Below are positions 12,960 to 61,898 of a stretch of 64,000 nucleotides of DNA, piece by piece. The first letter of the stretch is position 1. Every line of letters begins with the position of its first letter. Location: contig NZ_WHPF01000012.1 of NCBI RefSeq assembly GCF_013106755.1, positions 1 to 64,000 on the forward strand, given 5' to 3'. The DNA is from Limnovirga soli (GTDB lineage: Bacteria > Bacteroidota > Bacteroidia > Chitinophagales > Chitinophagaceae). Both the position numbers and the translations under genes were made by a program. The notes beneath the pieces were generated by a model that searched no databases, was not told where the DNA came from, and worked only from the letters and a program-made list of their open reading frames with translations.

Positions 12960-13022
12960 TTGTAGCCAAACTAAAGTAATATCATTAAGCACCGCTTGCG
13001 TCGCACACTTGTACGGTTATCT
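12960..13022 (-). repeat. IGR-A copy 7
   Basis: Minus-strand copy, core 12995-13014. It reads toward the MDR reductase start about 80 bp away. The segment after the core is diverged and the right end is only TTTGGCTAC. Confidence 0.8.
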
Positions 13023-13538: not shown

Positions 13539-16500
13539 ATGCAGGAGAAACTGGTTTACGAAAGCAAAAAATCTAAAATTTATTTTCAGGATGAAAGTGA
13601 ATGGGGTAAGCCTGTAGCCATGAAAATCCTGAATTATGAATTTCCTACGCCTTCTGATATACAACAATTTTACAATGAATTTGAGTTAATTGAAGGGCTA
13701 AATTTACCCGGCATCAGAAATGTGCTAAAACGTACAAAAGCCAAAAACCGGCATGCTATTTATTTGGAATGGGTAGCCGCAGAAACTATCAGTAGTGCTT
13801 TTAAAAACAAGCAGGGCGATATAATCGACTTTCTCTACATTGCTATAGCAGCGGCAGGCGCTCTAAGTGAAATTCATAGAAATAATATTATTCATAAAGA
13901 CATTAATCCTTTTAATGTACTGGTTAATCTGCAGGAGCGTTCCGTAAAGATTATCGATTTTGGTATCTCTTCTAAAATTGATTTGCGCCAGGTAAATTTG
14001 GGCAACCCCGAAAAACTGGAAGGCACACTGGCATATAACTCGCCTGAGCAAACCGGTAGAATGAATCGGGTAGTGGATTATAGAACCGATTTATATTCTT
14101 TGGGGATTACTTTTTATGAAATGCTTACCGGCAGGCTGCCATTTGCTATTACAGATGCTATAGAATTGGTACATAGCCATATAGCGGTTATACCCAAACC
14201 TGCATGTAGCATTAATCCTGCCATCCCCAAACCTATTTCTGATATTATTGATGTGCTAATGGCAAAAAATGCAGAAGACAGGTATCAATCTGCCTTGGGC
14301 TTACAACATGATCTTGCCATTTGTTTGAAGCAATACGAAGAGAAACGGCTAATAACTCCCTTTGCTTTAAAACAAAATGATTTCTCCGGAAAGTTTCAAA
14401 TACAACAAAAATTATATGGCAGGGAGCAGGAAATAGCATTACTCATAAATGCTTTTGAACGTTGTGCAGCGGGTAAAATTGAAATGATTTTAGTGGCAGG
14501 GTATTCAGGGACAGGAAAATCTGTTTTGGTAAGGGAAGTGCATAAACCTATTACACAAAAAAGAGGCTATTTTATTGAAGGAAAATACGATCAGTTTCAA
14601 AGGGCGGTGCCTTATTACGCCATATTACATGCATTTAGTGAATTGATAAATATTCTTCTCACAGAAAATGAAGAAAGGCTGGGTAAAATCCGTGGAGAAA
14701 TGCTGGAAGCCTTGGGTGCCGAAGGCAAAGTATTAACAGATGTAATTCCCAACCTTGAACATATCATTGGTAAGCAACCTGAAGTGCCGGTAGTAGGTGG
14801 GGCAGAATTGCAGAATCGGTTTAATTATGTGTTTCGTAAATTCCTGAAATCCATTTCTACCAAAGAGCATCCGCTGGTTTTGTTTATTGATGATTTACAA
14901 TGGGCCGACTCAGCTTCTCTTAGTTTGCTGGACGTGTTAATGACTGATTCCACACAAGGCCATTTTCTTTGTATAGGTGCTTACCGGGATAATGAAGTAA
15001 ATGCTTCTCATCCATTTATTATTACCAAGGGCGAGATGGAAGAAAAAGGGGCCATAATAAATACGGTTACGATTGGTAATTTAACGAATGAACATGTAAA
15101 TAACCTTATTGCGGATATTGTTAAAGCTCCCCAAAATGCTACTACCGACCTAACAGAATTGGTATATGCCAAAACATTGGGCAATGCATTTTTTGTTAAT
15201 CAATTTTTGAAATCATTATATCAGGAAAGCCTTCTCAATTTCAATTTTGATACCCATCAATGGGATTGGGATATTCAAAAAGTAAAGGAGCAGAATATTA
15301 CTGATAATGTAGTAGCATTAATGGCTGGTAAAATTTTACGTTTACCTGTAGCCACCCAAAAAGTTATGCGGCTGGCCGCCTGTATTGGTAATAGTTTTGA
15401 TGTAAATACCCTTTCAGATATTTCTCAGCAGGAAAAATCTGAAACAATTAAAGATCTTTTTGAAGGTTTACGTGAAGGTTTATTGGTGCCGGCAGGCGAG
15501 CATATGCGTTTTTCTCATGACCGTATTCAACAGGCAGTATATTCATTAATTCCGGATGCGGAAAAAAATGCTGTTCACCTGAGTATTGGTAAGCTCATGT
15601 TGCAAAATATTCCACAACCACAACAGGAGGAAAAACTATTTGATATTGTAAACCAATGGAACTGGGGTAAGGATATTATTAGTACCGATGAAGAAAGGGA
15701 ATTGCTTGCCAATTTAAATTTACAGGCCGGGATAAAAGCAAAACAAACCTCCGCTTTTAAACCTGCCTTTGACTATTTTGAAACAGGAATTCAATTACTG
15801 AAATCAAATGCGTGGGTCAATCAGTACCAACTATGCCTCAATTTATATACCCATGCCACTGAAGCAGCTTATTTGAATGGGGATTTTGCTGAGATGGATA
15901 AGAAGTATAAAGACATCCTTGCCAATGCAAAAGACCTGCTGGAAAAAGTTAAACCCTACGAAATAAGGATCCTCGCTTATAAAGCAGAAAACAAATTGCT
16001 GGATGCGATAAAAACTGGTCTGGAAGTGTTGGCCCAATTAGGAGAGCGTTTCCCATCGAAACCAAATATGTTGCATGTAATGACAGATTTGGTAAAAACT
16101 AAATTTAAGCTAAGCGGTAAAAATAATGATAAGCTGAAGGAATTGCCTTTAATGACCAATGAGTATAAAATTGCTGCCATGCGTATTATGGCAGATATTG
16201 CCTCCTCCAGTTATTGGGCTACGCCAACTTTATTTCCATTACTTATTTTTAGAATGGTGCATCTTTCTTTGCGATATGGCAATACAGCTGTTTCAGCATT
16301 TGCTTTTGCTACATACGGTGTTATTATGTGCGGTGTATTGGGCGATATGAAATCAGGTTATGAATTTGGAAAACTGGGTTTGATTCTATTGGAAAAATTT
16401 AATGCCAAAGAATGGAAAACGCAAATTTATACACCTATTTATGCTTTAATTATTAACTGGAACGAGCATGTGCACAATACCCTACGGCCACTGCAGGAAT

Positions 16501-18635
16501 CCTATCATATTGGGTTAGAAACAGGGGCAATAGAGTTTGCCTGCATTAACACCAATATTTATTGTATCCATGCCTATTTAAGTGGTAAAAGATTACCCCG
16601 GTTAGAGGAAGAAACCAGGGCTTACAGTCAAAGCTTTAGCCAGTTTAAGCAGGAAACTAATTTTAATTATAATGAGGTCTATCATCAGCCCATGCTCAAT
16701 TTTATGGGCAAATCCGCAGACCCCATTAAGCTTACCGGTGAAGTATATGATGAAGATAAAATGATGGCCCAAAACCTGGAAAGAAATGATAAAACCGGTA
16801 CCTTCTTTATTCATTTTAATAAATTGATTCTGTGCTATTATTTTCAGGAATATAACAAGGCTTTGTACCATGCAGCGGAGTCTCGTAAATTATTAGAAGC
16901 GGTACTGGCTAAATTTGAAATTCCCAATCATCATTTTTACGAGGCACTTAATATGTTATCGCTTTACCCAAAGGCTTCCAATGCAGATAAAGGAAAGTAC
17001 ATGAAGCGGGTGAAATCTAATATGGGCAAACTAAAAAAATGGGCTAAAAATGCACCTGAAAATTATTTGCACAAATATTATTTATTAGATGCAGAGCGCT
17101 TAAGGGTATTGGGTAAATGGGATGAAGCCAGGCTGGTATATGATAAAGCCATAGAAGGTGCTTCCAATAATGATTATATACACGAAGAAGCGCTGGCATA
17201 TGAATTGGCTGGTAAGTTTTATCTGGAACAAAAATCAAAAGACCTGGCAGAGTTTTATTTAAAAGCTGCCTATAATGCCTATCGCGAATGGGGCGCCATT
17301 GCCAAACTGCGTAATCTGGAACAGAATTACCCCAAATATGTTTCTGGCGTTTTAAGACGGGAAGGCAGTTTTAGCGATACAGAAATGCTGGATGCTACAA
17401 CAAGTATGGTGGATGGTTCGGTGCTGGATATTACTACTGTATTAAAAGCCTCCACTACTATTTCCGGAGAAATTGTATTGCCTAAGTTGCTTAGAAAATT
17501 AATGGATATTGTGATAGAAAATGCGGGTGCCCAATATGGGTTTCTAATGCTGGAAAAAGATGGCTCGCTGTTTATAGAAGCACAATCCTACCGCGATGCT
17601 GCGGCTGCCAATATCCTGGAACATATACCCGTAAATAACTCCGGATTGCTGGCAGAATCTATTGTAAAATATGTAAAACGTACTGGAGAAAGTGTGGTAA
17701 TTAATGATGCCGGAAATGATTTGCGTTACGAGAAAGATCCTTTCATTGTAATGCACAAACCTAAATCTATTATCTCCTTGCCCGTATTTAATCAGGGTAA
17801 ATTTATTGGAGTGCTTTATCTCGCTAACGATCTTACCACAGGGGCATTTACACAGGAGCGTATCGACTTGTTGAAACTGCTTTCAGGGCAGATAGCTGTT
17901 TCTATTGATAATGCCATATTGTACGATCAAATGGAACAAAAGGTAAAAGAACGCACTGCTGAATTGGCTACCGAAAAGAAGAAATCAGATGATTTGCTGT
18001 ATAATATCCTTCCGCTGGAAACTGCGGAGGAGCTGAAACGCGATGGTAAAACAAGGCCAAGAAAATTTGAAAGCGTTACAGTAATGTTTACCGACTTCCA
18101 GGGATTTACGAAGATATCAGAACATCTTTCTCCTGATGAATTGGTTAACGAAGTAGATACCTGTTTTGGGGCTTTTGATGAGATAATTGGCAAGTACGGT
18201 ATTGAGAAAATAAAAACCATCGGAGATTCATACATGTGTGTTGGGGGCCTGCCCATTCCCAATTCTACACATGCACAGGATTTGGTAAATGCTGCCTGCG
18301 ATATTCAGCAATGGATGCAGGCGCATAGCAATCAGCGTATTCAAAAAGGCCTGCCGCATTTTGAAATTCGTATTGGTTTGCATTCCGGCCCTGTAGTCGC
18401 CGGAGTAGTTGGTACCAAAAAATTCGCATTTGATATTTGGGGCGATACAGTAAATACCGCCAGCAGAATGGAATCAAGCGGTGTGCCTGGTAAAGTAAAT
18501 ATTTCCGGGGCTACGTACAGGCAAATTAAAGACAAGTTTAACTGTACCTATCGTGGTAAAATTGCTGCCAAGAATAAGGGAGATATAGATATGTATTTTG
18601 TAGAAAGCGCTATGCAAAATACGTTAACTGTGTAG
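13539..18635 (+). CDS. Giant kinase - AAA ATPase - GAF - adenylate cyclase signalling protein
   Basis: 1698 residues. Domains in order: (1) Ser/Thr kinase, about 1-270, with Lys29 in PVAMK, IIHKDINPFN near 119, DFG near 139 and TLAYNSPEQTGRM; (2) AAA/STAND-type ATPase from about 293 (YGREQEIALL), Walker A GYSGTGKS near 322 and Walker B LVLFIDDLQWAD near 447; (3) a long helical TPR-like region, about 600-1290; (4) GAF, about 1310-1470; (5) a short coiled linker; (6) class III cyclase, about 1505-1690, with FTDFQGFT, KTIGDSYMCVGG and FDIWGDTVNTASRMES. In the cyclase, Lys (IKTIG) and Asp (FDIWG) occupy the positions that select adenine; guanylate cyclases carry Glu and Cys. I therefore predict cAMP synthesis. 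The front half resembles PknK/histidine-kinase-like tandem proteins. There is no transmembrane segment, so a cytoplasmic sensor integrator is likely. Confidence 0.9.
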   Translation: MQEKLVYESKKSKIYFQDESEWGKPVAMKILNYEFPTPSDIQQFYNEFELIEGLNLPGIRNVLKRTKAKNRHAIYLEWVAAETISSAFKNKQGDIIDFLYIAIAAAGALSEIHRNNIIHKDINPFNVLVNLQERSVKIIDFGISSKIDLRQVNLGNPEKLEGTLAYNSPEQTGRMNRVVDYRTDLYSLGITFYEMLTGRLPFAITDAIELVHSHIAVIPKPACSINPAIPKPISDIIDVLMAKNAEDRYQSALGLQHDLAICLKQYEEKRLITPFALKQNDFSGKFQIQQKLYGREQEIALLINAFERCAAGKIEMILVAGYSGTGKSVLVREVHKPITQKRGYFIEGKYDQFQRAVPYYAILHAFSELINILLTENEERLGKIRGEMLEALGAEGKVLTDVIPNLEHIIGKQPEVPVVGGAELQNRFNYVFRKFLKSISTKEHPLVLFIDDLQWADSASLSLLDVLMTDSTQGHFLCIGAYRDNEVNASHPFIITKGEMEEKGAIINTVTIGNLTNEHVNNLIADIVKAPQNATTDLTELVYAKTLGNAFFVNQFLKSLYQESLLNFNFDTHQWDWDIQKVKEQNITDNVVALMAGKILRLPVATQKVMRLAACIGNSFDVNTLSDISQQEKSETIKDLFEGLREGLLVPAGEHMRFSHDRIQQAVYSLIPDAEKNAVHLSIGKLMLQNIPQPQQEEKLFDIVNQWNWGKDIISTDEERELLANLNLQAGIKAKQTSAFKPAFDYFETGIQLLKSNAWVNQYQLCLNLYTHATEAAYLNGDFAEMDKKYKDILANAKDLLEKVKPYEIRILAYKAENKLLDAIKTGLEVLAQLGERFPSKPNMLHVMTDLVKTKFKLSGKNNDKLKELPLMTNEYKIAAMRIMADIASSSYWATPTLFPLLIFRMVHLSLRYGNTAVSAFAFATYGVIMCGVLGDMKSGYEFGKLGLILLEKFNAKEWKTQIYTPIYALIINWNEHVHNTLRPLQESYHIGLETGAIEFACINTNIYCIHAYLSGKRLPRLEEETRAYSQSFSQFKQETNFNYNEVYHQPMLNFMGKSADPIKLTGEVYDEDKMMAQNLERNDKTGTFFIHFNKLILCYYFQEYNKALYHAAESRKLLEAVLAKFEIPNHHFYEALNMLSLYPKASNADKGKYMKRVKSNMGKLKKWAKNAPENYLHKYYLLDAERLRVLGKWDEARLVYDKAIEGASNNDYIHEEALAYELAGKFYLEQKSKDLAEFYLKAAYNAYREWGAIAKLRNLEQNYPKYVSGVLRREGSFSDTEMLDATTSMVDGSVLDITTVLKASTTISGEIVLPKLLRKLMDIVIENAGAQYGFLMLEKDGSLFIEAQSYRDAAAANILEHIPVNNSGLLAESIVKYVKRTGESVVINDAGNDLRYEKDPFIVMHKPKSIISLPVFNQGKFIGVLYLANDLTTGAFTQERIDLLKLLSGQIAVSIDNAILYDQMEQKVKERTAELATEKKKSDDLLYNILPLETAEELKRDGKTRPRKFESVTVMFTDFQGFTKISEHLSPDELVNEVDTCFGAFDEIIGKYGIEKIKTIGDSYMCVGGLPIPNSTHAQDLVNAACDIQQWMQAHSNQRIQKGLPHFEIRIGLHSGPVVAGVVGTKKFAFDIWGDTVNTASRMESSGVPGKVNISGATYRQIKDKFNCTYRGKIAAKNKGDIDMYFVESAMQNTLTV

Positions 18636-18679
18636 TAGCATTGGAGTGTAAAAAATATATTGTTAATCAACTGTAAGCC

Positions 18680-18725
18680 TCATGGCAGCTTTACTTGTGT
18701 CACTCACTTGTACTGACAGATACTT
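18680..18725 (-). repeat. IGR-A copy 8a, degenerate
   Basis: Minus-strand copy with a damaged core (18694-18713, TTGTGTCACTCACTTG). It pairs as an inverted repeat with copy 8b about 50 bp away. Confidence 0.7.
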
Positions 18726-18757
18726 TGGGCAACTAAAATATTTGATTGCACCATAAA

Positions 18758-18825
18758 GAACAGAACGTACAAGAGTGCGACGCAAGAAACGATAAAAAAT
18801 AGTACAGTCGCCGGGCTATAAATAT
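18758..18825 (+). repeat. IGR-A copy 8b
   Basis: Core 18767-18786, right end CGCCGGGCTATAAAT about 37 bp upstream of the lipoxygenase ATG and co-oriented with it. Confidence 0.9.
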
Positions 18826-18861
18826 TAGAAATAAATATCCAATTGTATAAAATTAAATGCA

Positions 18862-21027
18862 ATGACGAAAGCAGAAATTGATGAAATTATTGAAAGCTGT
18901 TTCCTGGAAACAAAAATTGTCTTTGGCGATAAGGGGCATTTTTTTTCGCCCAAACTGGGGGGCATAAATTACCTGGAAGTAGGTAAATCAAAAATCATCC
19001 GCAGCTGGGTTACCATTATGGCGGAAAGGCTATATCGTTGGATTGATAGATTGAAAGATGCCATTGAGAAATGGTGGAAAGGAATGACACCACGTACAAA
19101 TGTTATTTATGGTTCTGTCTTCGATAGTAGTCTTGTAGGTACCCTAACTTTTGCAAGACCAGGCGATATTGCTATTCCCATACATAACAAGCGGGTGCAA
19201 TTATGGGCACGTACCAAATTTTTTAAATGGCGAAAACTGGGAGAAGCTATTTCTGCGCAGGATGGCAGTTTTGTACTTCCCTTTGATTTAAGGGCGGCAA
19301 GGGCCTGGGTAATACGTAAAAAACTTCATGTTGAAATTTACCAGATAACTGATGTGGTAAACGATAATGGCCAGATGATTCCAAATAAGATAGTGTTTAA
19401 AACCTTATTTATTTCCAAAAAGGATTTGATTGGCATGGAATATAACCTGAGGGATGTGCAATTGTTTTTTTGGGAATACAGGGATGATACGCCATTACCA
19501 CGTGTGGTAATAAAAGACGATGGAACAGATGTACCCGAAAGCTATACCCATGGCAGGGTAGAAGCGATGAGCGAACAACTGATACCGATAGAAATAACCA
19601 AACAAAAGCACCTGTTGCAAATTGCCCGTGACCCATCATCCATTGATGTATATGAAATTCAAAGCGACTACCCAAAAAACCTTACAGTAGCTATTGAAGA
19701 AAAACTACCCGGTTATACCAGAGGAGATGATTGGTTTGGCGAAAGAATGATGAATGGAATGAATATGGCAACATTTTTACAAGATAAAACTGACCCCGCT
19801 TTTTATTGGGTAAAATATTTTGGCGCCTGTAATTATGAAGTAAATGATGAATATGCTTTTCCTTCGGTAGAAATAAAATTTACGCTAAAGGAGGATGGAC
19901 TGCCTTTACCTGTGGAAATTCATTTAACGGGGCCTTTAAATGCAATTAATAAGGATCCATTTCAAAAAATAGTGGTTACACCTCAGGATGGCGACAAATG
20001 GTTACAGGCCAAAAGAGTAGCCAGGGTATCGGGTGCCTTATGCGCAGAACTTGATCAGCACCTGGCAGGTACCCATTTAAATACAGAACAGTATTCTATT
20101 GCTATTCACCGTAACCTACGGCTAAACCCTGTTGTATTGTTATTGATGCCACATGTAAAATCGGTAGCACTGATAGATAAGGATGCAGATAGACTGTTAA
20201 TACATGGATATATTCCTAATGCAACCGCTCTTACCGTAAAAGGAGCTGAAGAACGTGCCTGTGATTTACTTGGATTGCAGGACTGGAAAGGCTGGAAGCC
20301 TATGAAACAGCTTTCTGAAGCACATATATACGCAAAAGCCGAGGATCTTTTTTGTGAGGTAGTGCGTGAATGGGTAGATCTTTTTTTTGAACAAAATGAA
20401 TTCGAAATAAAAAAACAATGGTTTGAAATTTACCGTTTTAGCGAAGAGCTGGTAGAACATGCCGTACCATTTTTCCCTTCAACTGTTGACTTGTCTGCAA
20501 TGTCTCCCGAGGAAAAAGATTTTACCCAACGCCGGCTGGAATATTTACTGGAAGAATACCGTGTGGATATCAATAGCCCAAGAGTAACAATAAATGGTGA
20601 ATTAAAAGCCGTATCGCCCATAACCAATTCACCAGTGTTTGATGAAAATAGCGATGACTGGCAAAATTTAAAAGATTGCTGTTGCTATATTATTACTACC
20701 GCTACCTTTTTGCATACATGGGTAAACGAGCACCAGTATGAAGATATTGGTGAAGTATTATACAGTTGCCTTGGGCTGCGCTTTGGCACCAAACCGCATG
20801 GCATAATGGCGCCGGAATCTGATTTAAGTATTGCGCCAGATGCTACCCGCAGCACCCAAATGATGTGGTTTAGTAACCTGCTTTCAAGAACCGAATATGG
20901 GTTTATTTTAAAAAATGAGCAAGGCGATATGTTCCAGGAATTTATGGATTTATTGGCGGCAAGAAAAGATGAGTTTGCCAAACTTAAAGTTGACGTTGAA
21001 CAAATTGAATCACGTACTAATATTTAA
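18862..21027 (+). CDS. Lipoxygenase-family iron dioxygenase
   Basis: 721 residues. Lipoxygenases insert O2 into polyunsaturated fatty acids to make hydroperoxides, using a non-heme iron held by three His, an Asn and the C-terminal Ile carboxylate. Candidates for all five are present: His400 and His405 (QHLAGTHLNTEQYSIAIHRNL, the H-x4-H block), His618 and Asn622 (FLHTWVNEH, H-x3-N) and a true C-terminal Ile721 (ESRTNI). The upstream DDWFGERMMNGMNMATF matches the family's F-x-R-E-x-x-x-G-x-NP region, and LNPVVLLLMPH matches HPxxKLLxPH. Residues about 80-165 look like a beta-sandwich in place of the PLAT domain. The gene is 5 bp ahead of a catalase-related gene, so the hydroperoxide product is probably processed by it. 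The N-terminus has no signal peptide. Confidence 0.85.
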   Translation: MTKAEIDEIIESCFLETKIVFGDKGHFFSPKLGGINYLEVGKSKIIRSWVTIMAERLYRWIDRLKDAIEKWWKGMTPRTNVIYGSVFDSSLVGTLTFARPGDIAIPIHNKRVQLWARTKFFKWRKLGEAISAQDGSFVLPFDLRAARAWVIRKKLHVEIYQITDVVNDNGQMIPNKIVFKTLFISKKDLIGMEYNLRDVQLFFWEYRDDTPLPRVVIKDDGTDVPESYTHGRVEAMSEQLIPIEITKQKHLLQIARDPSSIDVYEIQSDYPKNLTVAIEEKLPGYTRGDDWFGERMMNGMNMATFLQDKTDPAFYWVKYFGACNYEVNDEYAFPSVEIKFTLKEDGLPLPVEIHLTGPLNAINKDPFQKIVVTPQDGDKWLQAKRVARVSGALCAELDQHLAGTHLNTEQYSIAIHRNLRLNPVVLLLMPHVKSVALIDKDADRLLIHGYIPNATALTVKGAEERACDLLGLQDWKGWKPMKQLSEAHIYAKAEDLFCEVVREWVDLFFEQNEFEIKKQWFEIYRFSEELVEHAVPFFPSTVDLSAMSPEEKDFTQRRLEYLLEEYRVDINSPRVTINGELKAVSPITNSPVFDENSDDWQNLKDCCCYIITTATFLHTWVNEHQYEDIGEVLYSCLGLRFGTKPHGIMAPESDLSIAPDATRSTQMMWFSNLLSRTEYGFILKNEQGDMFQEFMDLLAARKDEFAKLKVDVEQIESRTNI

Positions 21028-21032
21028 TAATT

Positions 21033-22163
21033 ATGTATACCAACCTGGTAATGCCAAAGAAAAAAATAACCTTTTGGCGCTTTATTGCACTATGGATTGC
21101 TGCTAAATGGGATAAAATGATTTTATGGGGTATTACAAAAATATTTGCCCTGGCTATTGCTATAACCCTTGGTCTTAAAAAGCGTTACCGAATGTCGCAT
21201 AATAATGGTATTGCCGGCCGCGGTAAAGTGCGTATTGTAAATAATCCCCAATTTCCTGAGCATGATTTTTTTGTGCCCGGTAAAGAATTTGATGCCCGTG
21301 TACGCCATGCTATGGCTACCTTTTTAGACGATGCTATGAAAGGTATCAGAAGCTGTTCTGTTAAATTTGCTGACACTGATTTTGACAGCCCTTTCGACCT
21401 GGAATGCAATACCGGTGAAATAAATTTATTTTGGAGTGCAGCCAGCTTTTTGCAGTTTGCCAAATTGCGCAAAGAACAATGGGGGGTAGAGTATGTGGAA
21501 TATTACCGCAAATATCCACAGGGAATAAAAGGTGCGCAGGAAGCCCTGCGCAAAGATGCTACCTCTTTTACCAATTTGCGTTATTATGCACTTACACCTT
21601 TTTTGTTTTATGGTAAAGACAAAGTAAAACGCTATGCAAAATATAGGGTAATACCTTTTGATGATATTCCCGAAACCGGATTGATTGACAACCCCAGCGA
21701 TTGGGATACTGCCAACCAACGCATCACCCCGCACGAAACCCGTGGCAGAAATTATTTAAAAGAAGAATATAAGGAGCATATTCAAAAAGAGGGCGCTGCA
21801 AAATACCGCATACAAATTCAAACACGGGTGGCCAATGATGATGATAGTCCTGAAATATTTAATAACCAAATACCATGGGATGCTGCCATCTTTCCCTGGT
21901 ACGATTTGGCTACCATGGAAATAACCGAAATACTCGATTGGAAAGAAAGCACACTCACCAGCTTTTCATTAAATAATATGCCCAAAACACTGGGTATTAT
22001 ACCGGCCAAATCTATCTATGATTATAACTCGCTAAACTATATGCGTGCCAATGCCGAAATTGCCAGAAAAGCCAGGTTGTTGTCCTATAAATTAAAAGGT
22101 ATTCCGGGGCCTATACCCAATAACGATAACAGAAATACAGATGTATGGGATCCTAAAAAATAA
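21033..22163 (+). CDS. Catalase-related, allene-oxide-synthase-like hemoprotein
   Basis: 376 residues. Residues 54-70 (MSHNNGIAGRGKVRIVN) match the distal-His region of catalases. RGxSVKF-like IRSCSVKFADTD and FDLECNTGEINLFW (about 105-134) match the catalase block holding the heme-side Asn. His56 and Asn126 are 70 residues apart, the spacing between the distal His and Asn of the coral catalase-related allene oxide synthase. A hydroxyl residue (Ser55) precedes the His, where true catalases have Val and coral AOS has Thr. No clear R-x-x-x-Y proximal motif is found; Tyr329, Tyr331 and Tyr336 are candidates. An N-terminal hydrophobic stretch (about 13-48) suggests membrane association. Translational spacing of 5 bp to the lipoxygenase indicates one oxylipin operon: hydroperoxide in, allene oxide or other product out. 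The ATG at 21051 is an alternative start. Confidence 0.7.
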   Translation: MYTNLVMPKKKITFWRFIALWIAAKWDKMILWGITKIFALAIAITLGLKKRYRMSHNNGIAGRGKVRIVNNPQFPEHDFFVPGKEFDARVRHAMATFLDDAMKGIRSCSVKFADTDFDSPFDLECNTGEINLFWSAASFLQFAKLRKEQWGVEYVEYYRKYPQGIKGAQEALRKDATSFTNLRYYALTPFLFYGKDKVKRYAKYRVIPFDDIPETGLIDNPSDWDTANQRITPHETRGRNYLKEEYKEHIQKEGAAKYRIQIQTRVANDDDSPEIFNNQIPWDAAIFPWYDLATMEITEILDWKESTLTSFSLNNMPKTLGIIPAKSIYDYNSLNYMRANAEIARKARLLSYKLKGIPGPIPNNDNRNTDVWDPKK

Positions 22164-22194: not shown

Positions 22195-22217
22195 AAATAC
22201 AGCTGGGCTGTATTTTT
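22195..22217 (+). terminator. Intrinsic terminator of the lipoxygenase operon
   Basis: AAATACAGC (22195-22203), loop TGG, GCTGTATTT (22207-22215), followed directly by more T. It lies 32 bp past the stop of the catalase-related gene. Confidence 0.8.
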
Positions 22218-22361: not shown

Positions 22362-23399
22362 TTATTTAACCTGGTTGCCGTCAATATTTTTTGGTTTGTA
22401 TTCAGGGTGTGTTTTATATCGCTCATAAACAGTGTCATCAATACTTTGGTTGTTATCGTCGTTAATATTAATGATGCGCCAAACGGGGCGCCAAAACCAA
22501 TACATGGCAGAATATGAATTTCTAAGTACGCCTTTATAATCAGGTTTTATTTTGTCCAATACATCCTGGTTATAACAAAGGCCGGCCTCTTTTGCTTTGG
22601 CAATCAGCCATTGTAAAGCAATGTCGCTTAGTCCGCTATCTGCATAGCCGCCACCTACATTAGAGTGTACACCACTAAACCATCTTTGTTCCAACTTTTG
22701 TTTATGGTTCGGGTCTTTTTTTACTGTTTCACTTTTTTCCCAAAGGGTAGGCAAAAACAGTTTTCTTTTTTCATCAACTGCCAATGCGTGGTAGGCATTT
22801 TCTACATAGCTGCTTAAGGTAACATCGTGAAATTTATATTTCTGAATATTCTTTATTTTATAGGCCGGTAAGGGTATGCCAAGGCTGCCCACTGTATCCC
22901 ACACGCCAATAAATTTAATAGGCGTAATATCTTCATAGCAATAATTACTTCTAAAAAATTTCATCATATCACTATCCGGCGTGGTATAGCCATTACGGTC
23001 CCGGTAAAGGTTATAAGCATCCTGAATAAGATAGTAGTTCTCTGGTTTTAAAATACCGCAGTTTCTAATAAAACCTCCAATGCTTCTGGCTGTATAGGCA
23101 CCCCGGCTAAATCCAAACAAATAAATTTCATCACCGGGCTGGTAGGTCATTACCAAAAAGCTGTACATGTCTTTAATATTCTTATCAATACCTGCACCGG
23201 TGGTGCCACCCATAATTTTATCAGTAAGGGTATAGCCGGTGCCTACCCCTTCTTCGTATGCTTTAAGTTGTTGCATGCCATTACCATCGGCGCAAATGGC
23301 GTTAAACATTTTTTCTACATTGGTTTGTACAATGGTATTGCCGTCTTTACCGCCAATTTTATTCCAGGTGCCATCGCAGCAAACAATAATTCTTTTCAT
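22362..23399 (-). CDS. DUF2235 alpha/beta-hydrolase (T6SS phospholipase-like)
   Basis: 345 residues from the ATG at 23399 (MKRIIVCCDGTWN). The N-terminal VCCDGTWNK, the GFSRGAYTAR nucleophile elbow (Ser near 120), IKFIGVWDTVGSLG near 175 and WFSGVHSNVGGGY near 245 are the standard DUF2235 blocks. Characterised members include type VI secretion phospholipase effectors (Tle group), but many stand alone with unknown substrates. No signal peptide, VgrG or immunity partner is seen. It converges with the lipoxygenase operon; a lipase that frees fatty acids for the lipoxygenase is an attractive but unproven link. The in-frame ATG at 23456 is less likely. Confidence 0.88.
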   Translation of the reverse strand: MKRIIVCCDGTWNKIGGKDGNTIVQTNVEKMFNAICADGNGMQQLKAYEEGVGTGYTLTDKIMGGTTGAGIDKNIKDMYSFLVMTYQPGDEIYLFGFSRGAYTARSIGGFIRNCGILKPENYYLIQDAYNLYRDRNGYTTPDSDMMKFFRSNYCYEDITPIKFIGVWDTVGSLGIPLPAYKIKNIQKYKFHDVTLSSYVENAYHALAVDEKRKLFLPTLWEKSETVKKDPNHKQKLEQRWFSGVHSNVGGGYADSGLSDIALQWLIAKAKEAGLCYNQDVLDKIKPDYKGVLRNSYSAMYWFWRPVWRIININDDNNQSIDDTVYERYKTHPEYKPKNIDGNQVK

Positions 23400-23657
23400 A
23401 AGGTGCAGTTTTGTATTGGGTATACGAAATGTTATAGTACAAAATATTAATTGCATTTACATGTGTAAATATTTGCAATTAATGGCAGCATGCTTGTTTG
23501 AAGATAAGATTTTTGGATTTTAATAGCTGTAATAATGCTATATTCTTACCTAATTATTTTTTTGAAGCAGCTGGCGTGAATGATGTTGTGTGTTAGAACA
23601 ACTAAATGCTTATGTTAACAAAATTTCGCATGCTGTATCTATTTCAATAGCTGCGTG

Positions 23658-40333: not shown

Positions 40334-42106
40334 ATGAAACAATTAACCCTAATTGCATTTGTTTGCATTGCTTGTATGTATGTTTCTGTAGCGCAGCCTG
40401 GTACTCTTGATAGCAGTTTTGGGCAAAATGGAAAAGTAATTACTAGTTTCAATAATGATGTTTCAATTTGCTACGGTTCAGCTACGCAAAAGGATGGGAA
40501 AATAATCGTAGTTGGAGGTGGCAACATAGATAACGGTCAAGGAGGTTTTCTGGCAGTCCGTTATACTATTGAAGGGCAACTGGATGCAACATTTGGTGTG
40601 GGAGGAAGGGTTCTTGTAACTTTTGAAGAAGGAAGTGGAGAAGCACGAGATGTAGCAATACAAAATGACGGCAAAATAGTAATTGTTGGTTATGGCGGTA
40701 CTACCAAAACAACACCTAATGATATTTTTTTAGTAAGATTAAATTCTAATGGATTAGTCGATTCCACTTTTGGACTTAATGGAAGAGTTATTACTGATTT
40801 TAATAATTATGAAAATGCAAGGGCTATAGCAATTCAAAGTGATGGTAAAATTATTGTTGCAGGGAACTTTGAGCAACAAAAATTTCTAATAGTAAGGTAT
40901 TTATCAAATGGGGTAATTGATAACACTTTTGGCGAAAATGGAAAAGTAATAGCACCTTGGGGTGGACTTGCATTCGCAAATGATGTTTTAGTACAACCAG
41001 ACGGCAAGATAATTACATGTGGGTCAAGTGGTGGAATTGCTGTAATTGCACGCTATTTTCCCAATGGTATTCCTGATTCTGCTTTCGGCACTAATGGAGT
41101 TATATCAAATAGTTTTGGTTTTGCATCTACAAGTTTTAAAAATGTATCTCTTGATAAAAGTGCTTCCATTATTGCAGCGGGTTCAGCAGGTGATGGCATA
41201 GGCAATAACATGCTATTAGTAAAATACAATTTAATAGGAAAGCTCGATTCAAGCTTTGGCGTTGGCGGAAAAACAGTAATCACATTTAATGAGGGTTTTT
41301 CCAGAGTTTCTGCAATCGGATTGCAAAAGGATGGAAAAATTGTTGCAATGGGAGATGTATATAATCCATTCAATGGCAAGAAAAATAATTTTGCTGTTGC
41401 AAGAGTAGTTTCTGATGGCACTATTGATGAATCTTTTGATTTGGACGGGAAAGTTATTACAGATTTTGGCAGTGATTATTGGGAATATGCAGTAGATGGT
41501 TTTTTAACTGCTGAAGAAAAAGTTGTCGTTGTTGGCAATTCTGGTAACTATGATTCCCCCGTTGGTTATGCAATATTATTAGCCCGTTACAACGGCGATG
41601 CCCCCGAAAAAAACAAATACCTCCGCATCAAACACTGGCTGCACCACCACGGCATTACCTGGGAGGATAAACCCAATAACCTGATTAATTATTACAGCAT
41701 ACAAAGCAGCACCAATGGCAATGCATTTACTGAGGTAGCACGTATATTTAGTAACCATAATGGGGGCATACAAACCTATACTGCGGCCAACAATGCCACT
41801 GCCAATTACCGGGTAGCAGCCATAAGCAATACGGGTAATATTACCTATAGCAATACACTTACTTTAACCGCTACGCCCACCATACAACTCTACCCCAACC
41901 CCGCCAAAAACAACCTGCAAATAAAGGGCTTACCCGCAGGCACCACCAAACTTACGGTAACAGATATAAGGGGCAATACCAGCATAATAGCCACCACCAA
42001 CAGCACGGTATACAATATAAATATAGCACAGCTAACCAGCGGCAACTATCTGCTACATATTAAAACCGCCAACGAGGTTATTACCAAACAGTTTATAAAA
42101 GAATAA
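40334..42106 (+). CDS. Delta-60 repeat protein with T9SS type A sorting domain (paralogue 1)
   Basis: 590 residues. Signal peptide (ends SVAQ), then seven delta-60 repeats (TIGR02608), each built on a unit such as GTLDSSFGQNGKVITSF followed by a strand with AIQ-DGKIVVAG; together these probably form a beta-propeller-like surface domain. From about residue 432 a linker domain (HWLHHHGITWEDKPNNLI, YYSIQSSTNGNAF) precedes a type A sorting signal (IQLYPNPAKNNLQIKG, ITKQFIKE). Predicted to be secreted by the type IX system; no enzyme motif. The last ~480 bp are nearly identical to the same part of the next two genes. Confidence 0.93.
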   Translation: MKQLTLIAFVCIACMYVSVAQPGTLDSSFGQNGKVITSFNNDVSICYGSATQKDGKIIVVGGGNIDNGQGGFLAVRYTIEGQLDATFGVGGRVLVTFEEGSGEARDVAIQNDGKIVIVGYGGTTKTTPNDIFLVRLNSNGLVDSTFGLNGRVITDFNNYENARAIAIQSDGKIIVAGNFEQQKFLIVRYLSNGVIDNTFGENGKVIAPWGGLAFANDVLVQPDGKIITCGSSGGIAVIARYFPNGIPDSAFGTNGVISNSFGFASTSFKNVSLDKSASIIAAGSAGDGIGNNMLLVKYNLIGKLDSSFGVGGKTVITFNEGFSRVSAIGLQKDGKIVAMGDVYNPFNGKKNNFAVARVVSDGTIDESFDLDGKVITDFGSDYWEYAVDGFLTAEEKVVVVGNSGNYDSPVGYAILLARYNGDAPEKNKYLRIKHWLHHHGITWEDKPNNLINYYSIQSSTNGNAFTEVARIFSNHNGGIQTYTAANNATANYRVAAISNTGNITYSNTLTLTATPTIQLYPNPAKNNLQIKGLPAGTTKLTVTDIRGNTSIIATTNSTVYNINIAQLTSGNYLLHIKTANEVITKQFIKE

Positions 42107-42122
42107 GCAAAAAATGCATTGT

Positions 42123-43901
42123 ATGAAATCACTCCTCATTTTATTGGTATTGGTAAATTGTATGTACATAAGTAAAGCGCAGCCTGGTACTCTTGATAGC
42201 AGTTTTGGTGCAAATGGAAAAGTATTAGGTGAAGCTTTTCAAGGAGTTGCAAACTCGATGATTGTTCAGCCTGATGGTAAGATAGTTATTGGGGGAACAC
42301 AATATGGTGAACACAGTGGTTTTCTAGTTGCGCGTTATAATATGAATGGTACATTGGATATTAATTTTGGTGACAGTGGACGCGCAGTAAATAATCTTGG
42401 AGATGTAGCGTTCAGTAAGATAATTTATTCTATTGCGCTACAAAAGGATGGAAAAATTGTGGCTGTTGGGCAATATGCAAGTACAGGTGATAATAGTGGA
42501 TTTGCTATAATGCGCTTTAATTCAGATGGAAGTATTGATAAACAATTCGGGGATAACGGACTTACAATAACATCAGTATCTGGCAATTATGATATTGTTC
42601 GGGATATGGGTATATTACCTGATGGAACAATTATAGTTACTGGGGATACTGAAAAGAATCCCAACGACAATAAACGATCATTTTTAGCAAGCTATAATAG
42701 CAGTGGAAATTTAAATGAAAGTTTTGGAAATAAAGGCATACTTATAATCACACTCATAGATGTTGCTGATATAAGAGCATTGGGGATAACAAATGATTCC
42801 AAAATAATAATTGGAGGTTATTATAAAACATTTGAGAAAAGCATTTTATTGAAATTTAATTCTGACGGAAATGCTGACAAATCATTTGGAAATAATGGAT
42901 TAGCAGAGCTTTCGTTTAATAGCAATATCTACTTTAATCAATTAAATGACATAGCAATTAACCCTGACAATTCTATTGTAGCAACTGGATTTGTTCAGCA
43001 ATTTTCAAATGAATATTATAATATCATTGCCGAGAAGTTTCTTTCAAACGGAACGCCTGATAGTAGCTTTGGAACTAATGCCTATTCTTTAATTGGAATA
43101 GAAAAAAAGAACATTTATGCAAACTCAGTTCTATCTGAATCTAACGGAAAAGTTATTGCATCTGGATACTATGTAGATAAAGGAATAGGGTATTTTTTAG
43201 TATCTGCCTTTACGAAAAATGGGAAACCTGATTCAACATTTGGTATCAATGGAATACAAACAACATCTTTTGAAGGATCTGGAACGGCTTATTGCTCCGC
43301 GCTTCAAGAAGATGGTAAGATTCTTTTAGCTGGTACGAATGCCGATTATTCTATACCACGCTATCAGGTAGCAATAACCAGATACATGGGAAATGGTAGC
43401 GATAAATTGATGTATGTAAAAATAAAACACTGGCTGCACCACCACGGCATTACCTGGGAGAATAAACCCAATAACCTGATTAATTATTACAGCATACAAA
43501 GCAGCACCAATGGCAATGCCTTTACTGAGGTAGCACGTATATTTAGTAACCACCATGGGGGCATACAAACCTATACTGCGGCCAACAATGCCACCGCCAA
43601 TTACCGGGTAGCAGCCATTAGCAATACGGGTAATATTACCTATAGCAATACACTTACTTTAACCGCTACACCCACCATACAACTCTACCCCAACCCCGCC
43701 AAAAACAACCTGCACATACAGGGCTTGCCCGCTGGCACCACCAAACTTACGGTAACAGATATAAGCGGCAACACCAGCATAATAGCCACCACCAACAGCA
43801 CGGTATACAGCATAAACATAGCACAGCTAACCAGCGGCAACTACCTGCTACATATAAAAACCGCCAACGAGGTAATAACTAAACAGTTTATAAAAGAATA
43901 A
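42123..43901 (+). CDS. Delta-60 repeat protein with T9SS type A sorting domain (paralogue 2)
   Basis: 592 residues from the ATG at 42123 (MKSLLILLVLVN), which starts a signal peptide ending SKAQ; an ATG at 42114 is also in frame. Seven delta-60 repeats (GTLDSSFGANGKV, DGSIDKQFGDNG and so on) are clearly diverged from paralogue 1, while the C-terminal ~160 residues are almost the same (HWLHHHGITWENKPNNLI to ITKQFIKE). It begins 16 bp after paralogue 1, so the three genes are probably co-transcribed. Surface role inferred from the sorting domain; function unknown. Confidence 0.93.
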   Translation: MKSLLILLVLVNCMYISKAQPGTLDSSFGANGKVLGEAFQGVANSMIVQPDGKIVIGGTQYGEHSGFLVARYNMNGTLDINFGDSGRAVNNLGDVAFSKIIYSIALQKDGKIVAVGQYASTGDNSGFAIMRFNSDGSIDKQFGDNGLTITSVSGNYDIVRDMGILPDGTIIVTGDTEKNPNDNKRSFLASYNSSGNLNESFGNKGILIITLIDVADIRALGITNDSKIIIGGYYKTFEKSILLKFNSDGNADKSFGNNGLAELSFNSNIYFNQLNDIAINPDNSIVATGFVQQFSNEYYNIIAEKFLSNGTPDSSFGTNAYSLIGIEKKNIYANSVLSESNGKVIASGYYVDKGIGYFLVSAFTKNGKPDSTFGINGIQTTSFEGSGTAYCSALQEDGKILLAGTNADYSIPRYQVAITRYMGNGSDKLMYVKIKHWLHHHGITWENKPNNLINYYSIQSSTNGNAFTEVARIFSNHHGGIQTYTAANNATANYRVAAISNTGNITYSNTLTLTATPTIQLYPNPAKNNLHIQGLPAGTTKLTVTDISGNTSIIATTNSTVYSINIAQLTSGNYLLHIKTANEVITKQFIKE

Positions 43902-43916
43902 CCAAAAATGCATTGT

Positions 43917-45677
43917 ATGAAATCACTCCTCATTTTATTGGTATTGGTAAATTGTATTTACATAAGTAAAGCGCAAACCGGTACGCTTGATAGCAGTTTT
44001 GGCATCAATGGAAAAGTTATAAGCGAAACTTTCAAGGGGCGCATCAATGGAGTTGCAGTCCAAAAGGATAACAAAATTCTTATAGTAGGTTCAGGAAATT
44101 ATGATGACAAAGGAGGTTTTCTTATAGTTAGATACAATCCCGATGGGAACCCAGATGAAAGCTTTGGGAATTCTGGAAGGGTAATTACAACTATCGCTGG
44201 CGCAGCAAATGAATTTTTATCAGTAGCTGTTCAATCAGATGGAAATATAATAGCTTCCGGGTACTATTCCCCTAGTGGCTCAGGATCTGTAGATGCTGTC
44301 CTAATTAGATATAAGTCGAATGGTACTCTTGACAGTACTTTTGGAAATAATGGTATCGTTATTACTAATATTGCCCGTTGGGATTACCCTTATGATTTGA
44401 CTTTACAGAAGGATGGTAAAATTTTAATTGTTGGTGATAAAAGGATAAATGACAATGATAACCAAACATCATTTATTGCTCGATATAACATTAATGGTAG
44501 TCTTGATGAGGGATTTGGGATAAATGGCATACAATTAACGACTTTTAATAGCCTAATTAAGATGCGTTCAATAGCATTAACTTCAGACGAAAAAATCATA
44601 GTTGGTGGTACATATGGCGCTGGGGACGCATTTATTCTTGTTAGCTACTTAACTAATGGAGCTATAAACCCTGAATTTGGAAATGCCGGCAAGGCAACCT
44701 TATCATTATCAGATGGGGAGTTGGACGAAATTAAGATTCAAGTTGATGGGAACATATTAGCTACAGGTGTAGAAAGAAATAACGTTATTATAGCAAGATT
44801 TACAAAGAGCGGTGGGATTGATAATACATTCAGTAACGATGGGTTTAATGATAAAGTTTTTGAATCAGGTTTTTCCGATGGGAAAACTATTTTGTTACAG
44901 CCCGATATGAAGATAATAGTTGCTGGAAATAGGAGTAATAATAATGGTTCGTTTTATACCGTTTGTCGTTTTAAATTGGATGGTACATTAGATTCTACTT
45001 TTGCTACAAATGGTATTCAGCTCACATCTTTTGATGAAAGCACGTCTACACTAGTTTGTAATGATGCGGCATTACAAGCTGATGGAAAAATTGTTTTGGT
45101 TGGTAACTTAACAGAAGGTTTTCCGCCAGGTATATACGCAGCTTTGGCTAGATATAATAATGATAAGGGTTTAGGATCAAATCCACAATATGTAAAAATC
45201 AAACACTGGCTGCACCACCACGGCATTACCTGGGAGGATAAACCCAATAACCTGATTAATTATTACAGTATACAAAGCAGCACCAATGGCAATGCCTTTA
45301 CTGAGGTGGCACGTATATTTAATAACCAGCATGGTGGCACACAAACCTATACAGCAGCCAACAATGCCACCACCAATTACCGGGTAGCAGCAGTAAGCAA
45401 TACCGGCAATATTAAGTACAGCAATACACTTACTTTAACCGCCACACCCGCCATACAACTCTACCCCAACCCCGCCAAAAACAACCTGCAGATACAGGGC
45501 TTACCCGCAGGCACCACCAAACTTATAGTAACAGATTTAAGCGGCAATACCAGCATAATAGCCACTACCAACAGCACGGTATACAGTATACATATAGCAC
45601 AGCTAACCAGCGGCAACTACCTGCTACACATTAAAACTGCCAACGAGGTTATAACCAAACAGTTTATAAAAGAATAA
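43917..45677 (+). CDS. Delta-60 repeat protein with T9SS type A sorting domain (paralogue 3)
   Basis: 586 residues from the ATG at 43917 (an in-frame ATG also at 43908). Signal peptide nearly identical to that of paralogue 2, at DNA level too. Seven delta-60 repeats follow with their own sequence, then the shared C-terminal module (HWLHHHGITWEDKPNNLI, LYPNPAKNNLQIQG, ITKQFIKE). It is the last gene of the tandem set; a bidirectional hairpin terminator follows at 45853 after an IGR-A copy. Confidence 0.93.
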   Translation: MKSLLILLVLVNCIYISKAQTGTLDSSFGINGKVISETFKGRINGVAVQKDNKILIVGSGNYDDKGGFLIVRYNPDGNPDESFGNSGRVITTIAGAANEFLSVAVQSDGNIIASGYYSPSGSGSVDAVLIRYKSNGTLDSTFGNNGIVITNIARWDYPYDLTLQKDGKILIVGDKRINDNDNQTSFIARYNINGSLDEGFGINGIQLTTFNSLIKMRSIALTSDEKIIVGGTYGAGDAFILVSYLTNGAINPEFGNAGKATLSLSDGELDEIKIQVDGNILATGVERNNVIIARFTKSGGIDNTFSNDGFNDKVFESGFSDGKTILLQPDMKIIVAGNRSNNNGSFYTVCRFKLDGTLDSTFATNGIQLTSFDESTSTLVCNDAALQADGKIVLVGNLTEGFPPGIYAALARYNNDKGLGSNPQYVKIKHWLHHHGITWEDKPNNLINYYSIQSSTNGNAFTEVARIFNNQHGGTQTYTAANNATTNYRVAAVSNTGNIKYSNTLTLTATPAIQLYPNPAKNNLQIQGLPAGTTKLIVTDLSGNTSIIATTNSTVYSIHIAQLTSGNYLLHIKTANEVITKQFIKE

Positions 45678-59104: not shown

Positions 59105-59208
59105 AATAACTAAATTTAATGTAATGGTTAGTAGTAATAATTCTCAATGCTATATACCGATGTTTAAGTAAGTGTAAGCACCTGTATATAAGTGTATTTC
59201 TGTTTTAA

Positions 59209-60630: not shown

Positions 60631-60699
60631 AGATATGTTTTTAGTTGTTTGTTGTTTATAAAAATTTTAGTTGTCTCCATGTTGTTTTGCATTTATATG

Positions 60700-60768
60700 A
60701 GCCCTGCTATTGCTCATCATGCAGCTTTACTTGCGTCGCACTCTTGTGCGTTTGCCTTTGTGGCAGCT
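60700..60768 (-). repeat. IGR-A copy 24
   Basis: Minus-strand copy, core 60730-60749, right end AGCAGGGCTCATATA about 70 bp upstream of the ftsA ATG and co-oriented. Confidence 0.9.
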
Positions 60769-60821
60769 TTTGATAAAATCCCTTGCTTCTTCACTTTAAC
60801 TTACTCACTTGCTCCACATTG

Positions 60822-60885
60822 TTCCGAACCCTGAACCGAGCGTGGCAGGTAAAGCTTATTGCTTGTACTTCTGCCGGCTACCAAA
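60822..60885 (+). repeat. IGR-A variant copy in the ftsA-ftsQ gap
   Basis: Variant core 60826-60848 (GAACCCTGAACCGAGCG), right end CTGCCGGCTACC. It faces away from copy 24 and abuts the ftsQ stop. Confidence 0.8.
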
Positions 60886-60888
60886 TAT

Positions 60889-61893: not shown

Positions 61894-61898
61894 ATAGT

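Follow-up and report, generated by a model that had tools for sequence, protein, structure and literature searches.

The locus

We analysed a stretch of 64,000 nt from Limnovirga soli (Bacteroidota; contig NZ_WHPF01000012.1, positions 1 to 64,000 of the forward strand), referred to below as the window. It carries a lipoxygenase gene (LOX) and, 5 bp after its end, a gene for a catalase-fold protein related to coral allene oxide synthase (AOS), which we call X. An earlier note, made from the sequence alone, had described the pair as a two-gene oxylipin operon. Both open reading frames (ORFs) and the 5-bp distance were found as described there, with LOX and the coral-AOS-fold protein encoded by separate, adjacent genes in a Bacteroidota genome. 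The restriction to two genes did not hold. A third gene, KIN, lies upstream on the same strand, ending 226 bp before LOX, and it was found beside X at all 15 close loci that we collected, with LOX present at 14 of them. The features discussed below are listed in Table 1.

Table 1. Positions of the genes, candidate functional residues and related features (window coordinates unless a locus label is given)
Feature	Position	Strand	Basis or conservation
KIN, 1698 aa, kinase-ATPase-GAF-adenylyl-cyclase protein	13539-18635	+	Pfam
KIN-LOX spacer, 226 bp	18636-18861	+	
LOX, lipoxygenase, 721 aa: N-terminal helices, beta domain, then catalytic domain	18862-21027	+	
X, catalase-fold protein (coral-AOS relative), 376 aa	21033-22163	+	
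9-bp inverted repeat 3' of X, possible but weak terminator between convergent genes	22195-22215	unassigned	
Codons of candidate LOX iron ligands His400 and His405	20059-20061 and 20074-20076	+	11/11 rows
Codons of candidate LOX iron ligands His618 and Asn622	20713-20715 and 20725-20727	+	11/11 rows
Codon of LOX C-terminal Ile721, candidate fifth iron ligand	21022-21024	+	11/11 rows
Codon of LOX Ala442, presumed stereochemistry residue	20185-20187	+	11/11 rows
Codons of X distal Ser55-His56	21195-21200	+	15/15
Codon of X distal Asn126	21408-21410	+	15/15
Codon of X Ala341, Tyr in catalase, coral AOS and the NGR234 relative	22053-22055	+	alignment
Codon of X Arg348, matching heme-coordinating coral R360	22074-22076	+	14/14
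Codon of X Tyr352, RxxxY, 11 residues past the Tyr place	22086-22088	+	Tyr 10/14
RPE65- or MPAB_Lcp-type oxygenase genes in a row with KIN	L042, L044, L047, L038; L043, L046, L048, L052		
Gene for a 238-aa protein without a Pfam family, 3 bp upstream of KIN	L050 3933-4649; L051 9924-10640		

Conservation of the gene set

Relatives of X were collected from several sets. They were present in two of 59 relatives (own genome included), at five loci from one contig scan, as strong matches in five genomes of the window's phylum (395 sampled, own genome included) and in one of 218 genomes of the class of G448 (G448 itself), and in six of 215 genomes of the family of G446, two of which had already been counted. 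The total was 15 distinct close X loci including the window (G and L are our labels for genomes and loci). Weak X-profile matches in the phylum sample (G295, G358, G077 and G142) and weak partial matches in the class of G448 (G818, G825 and G853) were not counted. The one of the four phylum matches that was opened, L028, is a LodA-type oxidase.

Gene order varied while the company was kept. It was KIN-LOX-X at eight loci, LOX-X-KIN at four and KIN-X-LOX at one; at another, the gene after KIN encodes the LOX N-terminal beta domain fused to X (G945, L087, 6809-8323 on the minus strand), and at L029 LOX-KIN was accompanied by a convergent X. L024, a KIN-LOX-X locus, has an extra response-regulator/histidine-kinase gene in between. 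KIN ended in a nucleotide cyclase at ten loci, recognised by Pfam in the window, L006, L007, L025 and L029, and by a match to the window cyclase in G058, L005, L009, L084 and L087. At five loci the output was of histidine-kinase type, detected by Pfam (HATPase_c) in L024, L026 and L027 and assigned in L085 and L086 from the end of the match at 1478-1481 and by eye. The LOX-X-KIN loci L026, L027, L085 and L086 all combine this output with Ile at residue 352 and Lys at residue 53 of X, and are, on their sequences, a distinct sub-branch. L029 has a LOX of a different subfamily, which matches PF00305 at E = 2.5e-58 and the window LOX at E = 9e-5, so that LOX was probably exchanged inside a unit that was kept. 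In G058 (L004, 1997-7101) a frameshift or an assembly error has split KIN into three reading frames; LOX and X there are intact.

Several close loci belong to one family. The set as a whole spans three phyla, namely Bacteroidota (L005, Indibacter, Mongoliibacter), Pseudomonadota (Acidiferrobacterales) and Actinomycetota (Acidimicrobiales), and KIN identity among loci drops to about 25%. Over ten loci (L005 and four later-found loci excluded), locus-to-locus sequence identities were correlated among KIN (residues 470-1478), LOX and X (r = 0.976, 0.927 and 0.940), and none of 5000 permutations reached any of these values. When L029 was left out, r was 0.926, 0.874 and 0.919, reached by 0, 6 and 0 of 5000 permutations. 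The KIN, LOX and X trees, which were not compared branch by branch, differ in some branches.

As a control, we compared gene occurrence within a single sample from the window's phylum (395 genomes). KIN and LOX were each scored for no more than two candidates in a genome, with a KIN threshold of E ≤ 1e-100, and the counts are lower bounds. LOX was above its cut-off in at least six genomes and KIN in at least 16; X was found in five. All six LOX genomes had KIN within 2 kb of LOX with at most one gene between them (hypergeometric P = 1.6e-9), and the five top-scoring KINs were those of the five X genomes. A LOX match in G248 was below the cut-off and was dropped.

Five Sinorhizobium plasmid records (28% identity to X) were excluded as distant, and NGR234 alone was opened. 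Its X relative has a coral-type Tyr in the motif RAIVY, and no KIN was found among its eight annotated neighbours. The catalase-related genes on the NGR234 plasmid (L003, 3880-9933) lie by a di-heme cytochrome c peroxidase and a patatin-like phospholipase, and this region is perhaps another lipid-oxidation cluster.

KIN

KIN combines a Ser/Thr kinase (residues 13-258), an AAA_16 ATPase (291-477), a GAF domain (1316-1456) and a class III nucleotide cyclase (1508-1689); CHK1-like TPR matches were found in its middle region in some relatives. The motifs of the kinase (HKD and DFG), the ATPase (Walker A and B) and the cyclase are intact. The cyclase motifs KIKTIGD and FDIWGDTVN hold an adenylyl-type Lys and Asp, which we take to be the purine-specificity residues. 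Lys/Asp versus Glu/Cys are given as the residues that set purine specificity in class III cyclases in the available passages of PMC1262709.

KIN is the sole full-length copy in its genome, where two further matches cover 174 and 189 residues. Its best NCBIfam match was TIGR03903 (TOMM system kinase/cyclase fusion protein, E = 3.5e-51), of which it is not a member, scoring 174.2 bits where the cut-off is 705.75. Neither LOX nor X had an NCBIfam match at E ≤ 0.1. The N-terminus of KIN resembles PADLOC kinases (PD-T4-6, a generic match) and its cyclase resembles a Pycsar cyclase (E = 1e-16).

The lipoxygenase

LOX matched PF00305 above the family cut-off (E = 5.8e-9), and its residues 102-720 matched the Cyanothece lipoxygenase 5ek8 in PDB (E = 3.3e-102). 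The earlier note had pointed to candidates for all five iron ligands, including the terminal Ile. This was borne out: H400, H405, H618, N622 and I721 are invariant in the 11 aligned LOX rows, the window included. The AlphaFold2 model of LOX had a mean predicted local distance difference test score (pLDDT) of 74.4, with values below 50 at residues 719-721 and 435-443. It aligned with 5ek8 over 605 residues (Z = 36.2, 31% identity), the N-terminal beta domain included; the remaining lipoxygenases among the matches listed had Z scores of 18-22. The structural alignment stopped at I721 in 46 of the 50 rows listed, where the model (719-721) is below 50 in pLDDT. By its ligand residues and predicted fold, LOX is a true lipoxygenase.

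At the Coffa position, Ala442 is present in all 11 LOX rows and Gly in 5ek8. We assume this position to be the one that determines R or S chemistry under the Ala/Gly rule; Ala442 therefore predicts an S-hydroperoxide, unlike the product of the coral 8R enzyme, and the LOX product is, from the sequence, probably of S configuration. Three FA_desaturase genes are present in the genome, so polyunsaturated chains are possible.

The catalase-fold protein

Residues 45-339 of X matched coral AOS (1u5u, E = 3.1e-59), and no Pfam family was above its cut-off. The AlphaFold2 model had a pLDDT of 69 and a predicted template modelling score (pTM) of 0.71; residues 49-57, which include S55 and H56, were below 50. 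Foldseek placed coral AOS first (E = 9.8e-28), followed by catalases. In the structural alignment, 1u5u was likewise the best match (Z = 25.6 over 312 residues, 4.2 Å). The model also has a long N-terminal helix (residues 14-48), possibly a membrane anchor.

The heme-coordinating residues of coral AOS are R64, R102 and R360, with T66, H67 and N137 on the distal side and Y353 on the proximal side; K107 lies at the substrate entrance, and position 150 is Leu in the AOS and Phe in the lyase (available text of PMC5617202). We compared these positions in an alignment of 15 X rows including the window, of which 14 are readable downstream because the L009 row ends after residue 142. The distal pair S55-H56 corresponds to coral T66-H67, with Ser for Thr, and N126 to N137, all in 15 of 15 rows; in the window the His-Asn spacing is 70 and a hydroxyl residue precedes the distal His, as noted earlier. 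R91 (coral R102) is invariant in the 15 rows. R53 (coral R64) is kept in 11 rows and replaced by Lys in four. R348 (coral R360) is present in all 14 readable rows and aligns with the Arg seven residues past the NGR234 Tyr. At the place of coral K107, X has T96 (Thr or Ser in 15/15), where coral AOS would call for Lys, and at the place of L150 it has F139 (Phe in 15/15), as in coral hydroperoxide lyase.

The proximal Tyr is missing. Its place (coral Y353) is occupied by Ala341 in the window, and the 14 readable rows have Ser (11), Ala (2) or Gly (1). The register was assessed in several ways. MAFFT, run in three modes on the 14 readable rows and the NGR234 relative, placed the NGR234 Tyr on residue 341 each time. 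In NGR234, R-A-I-V-Y is followed by P-G-A-R-A-A-R, of which A, R, A and R fall on A344, R345, A347 and R348; moreover, the coral spacing from Y353 to R360 is seven, equal to that from 341 to 348. In both the pairwise and the profile alignments, the Arg preceding the Tyr, in coral and in NGR234, falls on R338, where the alignments stop. The paired row ends of the structural alignments for human catalase (353/370), Proteus catalase (357/353) and HPII (351/425) would place the Tyr on 341 if the last helix is ungapped, given the proximal Tyr numbers that we assume for these three enzymes. This placement is suggestive for a model, and other structural rows end differently (3rgp_A 355/391, 1si8_A 357/372, coral 1u5u 359/367). 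Since the structural row ends disagree, the Tyr register rests mainly on the MAFFT alignment with NGR234.

A second motif, R348-LLS-Y352, resembles the RxxxY of catalases (Tyr in 10 and Ile in four of 14 rows). Y352 is out of register, further along one modelled helix (334-355, block pLDDT 52-76). With the proximal Tyr absent, the axial ligand would have to be another residue, an outside ligand or none, and the heme chemistry of X must differ from that of coral AOS, if heme is bound at all. That the distal residues and the heme Args are kept speaks for a pocket that still matters. The earlier description of X as allene-oxide-synthase-like was therefore upheld in part. By sequence and model, "coral AOS relative" holds for its fold and distal residues; "allene oxide synthase" appears to go too far given the residues at the Tyr, K107 and L150 places.

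Neighbourhoods of other KIN genes

The phylum sample contained 20 KIN loci, five with LOX and X and one with LOX and a LOX-like gene. The latter (G130, without X) encodes a LOX-like protein of 472 aa and ends 6 bp before KIN; it matched lipoxygenases in PDB (E = 1e-7) and no Pfam family at E ≤ 0.001. Three of the 20 loci had an RPE65 (carotenoid-oxygenase-type) gene directly upstream of KIN, and one had a flavin oxidoreductase upstream with RPE65 two genes further. An MPAB_Lcp gene stood in the row at four loci, together with a methyltransferase in L043 and with a Pyr4-like transmembrane terpene cyclase in L048. Flavin amine-oxidase/desaturase-like genes were found in the row at two loci and an FAD/ALO oxidase at one. 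Overall, RPE65, MPAB_Lcp or flavin/FAD oxidoreductase genes were in the row at 11 of the 14 KIN loci without LOX.

Across the 16 KIN genomes, four of six RPE65 and four of seven MPAB genes lay within about 3 kb of KIN, compared with a covered fraction of 0.3%; these linkage figures are descriptive, as the enzyme families tested were picked after viewing the KIN neighbourhoods. At L072, we saw by eye a gene resembling the one that comes just before the gene of the 238-aa protein listed in Table 1.

In the class of G447 (Gammaproteobacteria), KIN was detected in 15 of 274 genomes, G447 included. Besides G447, 13 of these genomes (all except G587) contributed 20 KIN loci to the analysis, and one neighbour was scanned at each of ten loci.

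Possible function of the unit

We regard it as evenly balanced, judging from sequence, whether KIN, LOX and X form a three-gene oxidised-lipid signalling module. LOX would add O2 to a polyunsaturated acyl chain and give a probable S-hydroperoxide, as Ala442 suggests. X, probably membrane-attached via its N-terminal helix, would rearrange, cleave or capture the LOX hydroperoxide. KIN would use its middle or GAF region to detect the product, or loaded X, and respond with cyclic AMP, or in other lineages with histidine-kinase phosphotransfer, as its domains and conserved linkage imply. The unit suggests, short of proof, that oxidised fats may serve certain bacteria as internal signals.

Several observations speak against a signalling module. 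The absence of the proximal Tyr from X makes the second catalytic step uncertain. KIN and LOX are separated by 226 bp in the window, compared with -4 to 37 bp in six relatives of identical gene order, and LOX may have a promoter of its own inside the spacer. The G945 cassette is without the LOX catalytic domain, and LOX elsewhere in that genome was not searched. None of the ten Gammaproteobacteria KIN neighbours scanned (that of G447 itself aside) was a lipid oxygenase, the remaining loci being viewed as ORF starts. Finally, the linkage would also suit a KIN that regulates the enzymes and does not sense their product. The partnership of KIN with an oxygenase is not universal, because the Gammaproteobacteria neighbours checked are of other kinds; in the phylum sample, the KINs of L050 and L051 adjoin the 238-aa protein without a Pfam family, and L045 has no partner of these kinds. 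Oxygenase linkage seems to be a property of one KIN branch and not of all such kinases.

A wider class is conceivable, and we put it forward tentatively. An oxygenase acting on polyunsaturated chains (LOX, carotenoid-cleavage-type or MpaB/Lcp-type) would be paired with a giant kinase-ATPase-GAF receptor with a swappable output. In the LOX branch, X would be the constant partner and a natural cavity variant, with a small residue for the proximal Tyr and the remaining heme pocket kept; it may act as a heme enzyme of non-canonical type or as a receptor for oxylipins. Because related kinases pair with unrelated oxygenases, one receptor type serving different lipid signals is, in our view, the easier reading. 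If true, the wider class would be the bacterial equivalent of signalling by eicosanoids, jasmonates or retinoids. The three-gene unit links two questions, namely which signals the giant kinase-ATPase-GAF proteins perceive and for what purpose lipoxygenases are retained in some bacteria. X poses a third, the role of a catalase fold without the axial Tyr ligand.

A plain oxylipin biosynthesis operon, the alternative that survives best, appears rather unlikely. X would be a heme AOS or hydroperoxide lyase with Y352 or another residue as proximal ligand, and KIN would only regulate. The structural match of X to coral AOS is as this reading would have it, as are the largely kept distal Ser-His-Asn and Args of coral R64, R102 and R360, the RxxxY motif (348-352) present in 10 of the 14 rows and the lyase-like F139. 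It is hard to reconcile with the small residues (Ala, Ser or Gly) that stand for the proximal Tyr in all 14 readable rows and with Ile for Y352 in four of them, and a mere regulator would hardly require a single protein with kinase, ATPase, GAF and cyclase.

We consider a hydroperoxide detoxification or redox-stress unit improbable. The catalase superfamily fold of X would suit a peroxidase that removes lipid hydroperoxides, with KIN as a stress sensor, but the unit itself makes hydroperoxide (LOX is present at 14 of 15 loci), the proximal Tyr is missing, and a presence in five of 395 genomes is unlike that of a housekeeping detoxifier. An anti-phage or self-sacrifice system, in which KIN would be an ATPase-coupled sensor and LOX an effector that damages membrane lipids, is a little less credible still. 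The resemblance of KIN to PD-T4-6 kinases and to a Pycsar cyclase and the patchy spread over three phyla would agree with it; however, similarity in the kinase part is expected of any Ser/Thr kinase, the output is a cyclase or a histidine kinase, and LOX and X had no PADLOC match at E ≤ 0.01 (four window proteins scanned). Chance adjacency is rejected because the 15/15 linkage comes with reshuffled order, and inertia through recent shared ancestry alone, to which the loci from one family would point, is highly improbable given three phyla, KIN identities down to about 25%, changing order and output and the exchanged LOX of L029.

Regulatory signals and neighbouring genes

Between positions 13000 and 23800, the promoter scan gave 26 hits, fewer than in shuffled sequence (37.8), and the terminator scan gave 14 candidate sites against 9.6 expected; the 9-bp repeat at 22195-22215, the one feature that corresponds to the shared terminator of the earlier note, was called on the minus strand. 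Convergent with X lies a Tle1-like gene (22362-23456, minus strand; PF09994, E = 7.9e-87), similar to phospholipase effectors of the type VI secretion system. Its product could release fatty acids. No such gene was seen beside the relatives' cassettes from the ORF starts, for which no dedicated search was made. Farther away, the window contains three tandem paralogues for secreted DUF5122 beta-propeller proteins bearing C-terminal sorting domains (40334-45677, plus strand) and the cell-division genes for FtsZ and FtsA with a Mur ligase nearby (57137-63266, minus strand).

Comparison with known systems

LOX, the coral-AOS-like fold and kinase-GAF-HisKA/cyclase proteins are each already known. 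We found no description of the three-gene unit in the titles, abstract starts and passages of open-access literature, mostly without subscription papers, and this result is no proof of novelty.

X and LOX share with the Plexaura homomalla 8R-LOX-AOS (1u5u/3dy5) a catalase fold with distal hydroxyl-His-Asn next to a lipoxygenase. Here, by contrast, the genes are separate, Ala, Ser or Gly replaces the proximal Tyr, Thr stands for K107 and Phe for L150, LOX is nearer to 5ek8 and has Ala at the stereochemistry residue, and KIN is part of the unit. Cyanothece PCC8801 LOX (5ek8), the closest solved lipoxygenase, differs at the Coffa position, with Gly there and Ala here. In Fusarium, the gene of the catalase Fg-cat presumably adjoins a lipoxygenase gene. 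The available part of PMC11719350 describes catalase-LOX fusions in Anabaena and Acaryochloris and an Fg-cat that acts on 13S-hydroperoxides. These resemble our unit, by description, in that a catalase-related protein works with LOX hydroperoxides; the same part of that source mentions no KIN partner.

The catalase-related hydroperoxide lyase of Capnella imbricata shares with X the Phe at coral position 150 (F139). It differs in that the proximal Tyr is absent here, and other lyase-specific residues were not matched or were unclear in X. In the coral lyase, F150 and S177 replace L150 and L177 (available text of PMC5617202); for the 176-177 pair, the coral numbering used here is off by one from that source.

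KIN resembles proteins with kinase, GAF and HisKA (HstK-type) and Tery_2857, a kinase with GAF and CYCc, both described in the accessible passages of PMC2176072. The combination of kinase and GAF with either output is common to all; the fixed enzyme partner is found here, and none is named in those passages. Compared with HstK-type proteins proper (Ser/Thr kinase, GAF and HisKA/HATPase), the window KIN ends in a cyclase. The TOMM kinase/cyclase fusion (TIGR03903), named after a natural-product system, is likewise a kinase/cyclase fusion, with KIN below its cut-off. As for LOX, the available part of a review (PMC11011848) places bacterial lipoxygenases in cyanobacteria and proteobacteria; a LOX family with partners of its own is now present in Bacteroidota, and an Acidimicrobiales genome has a LOX with the same companions.

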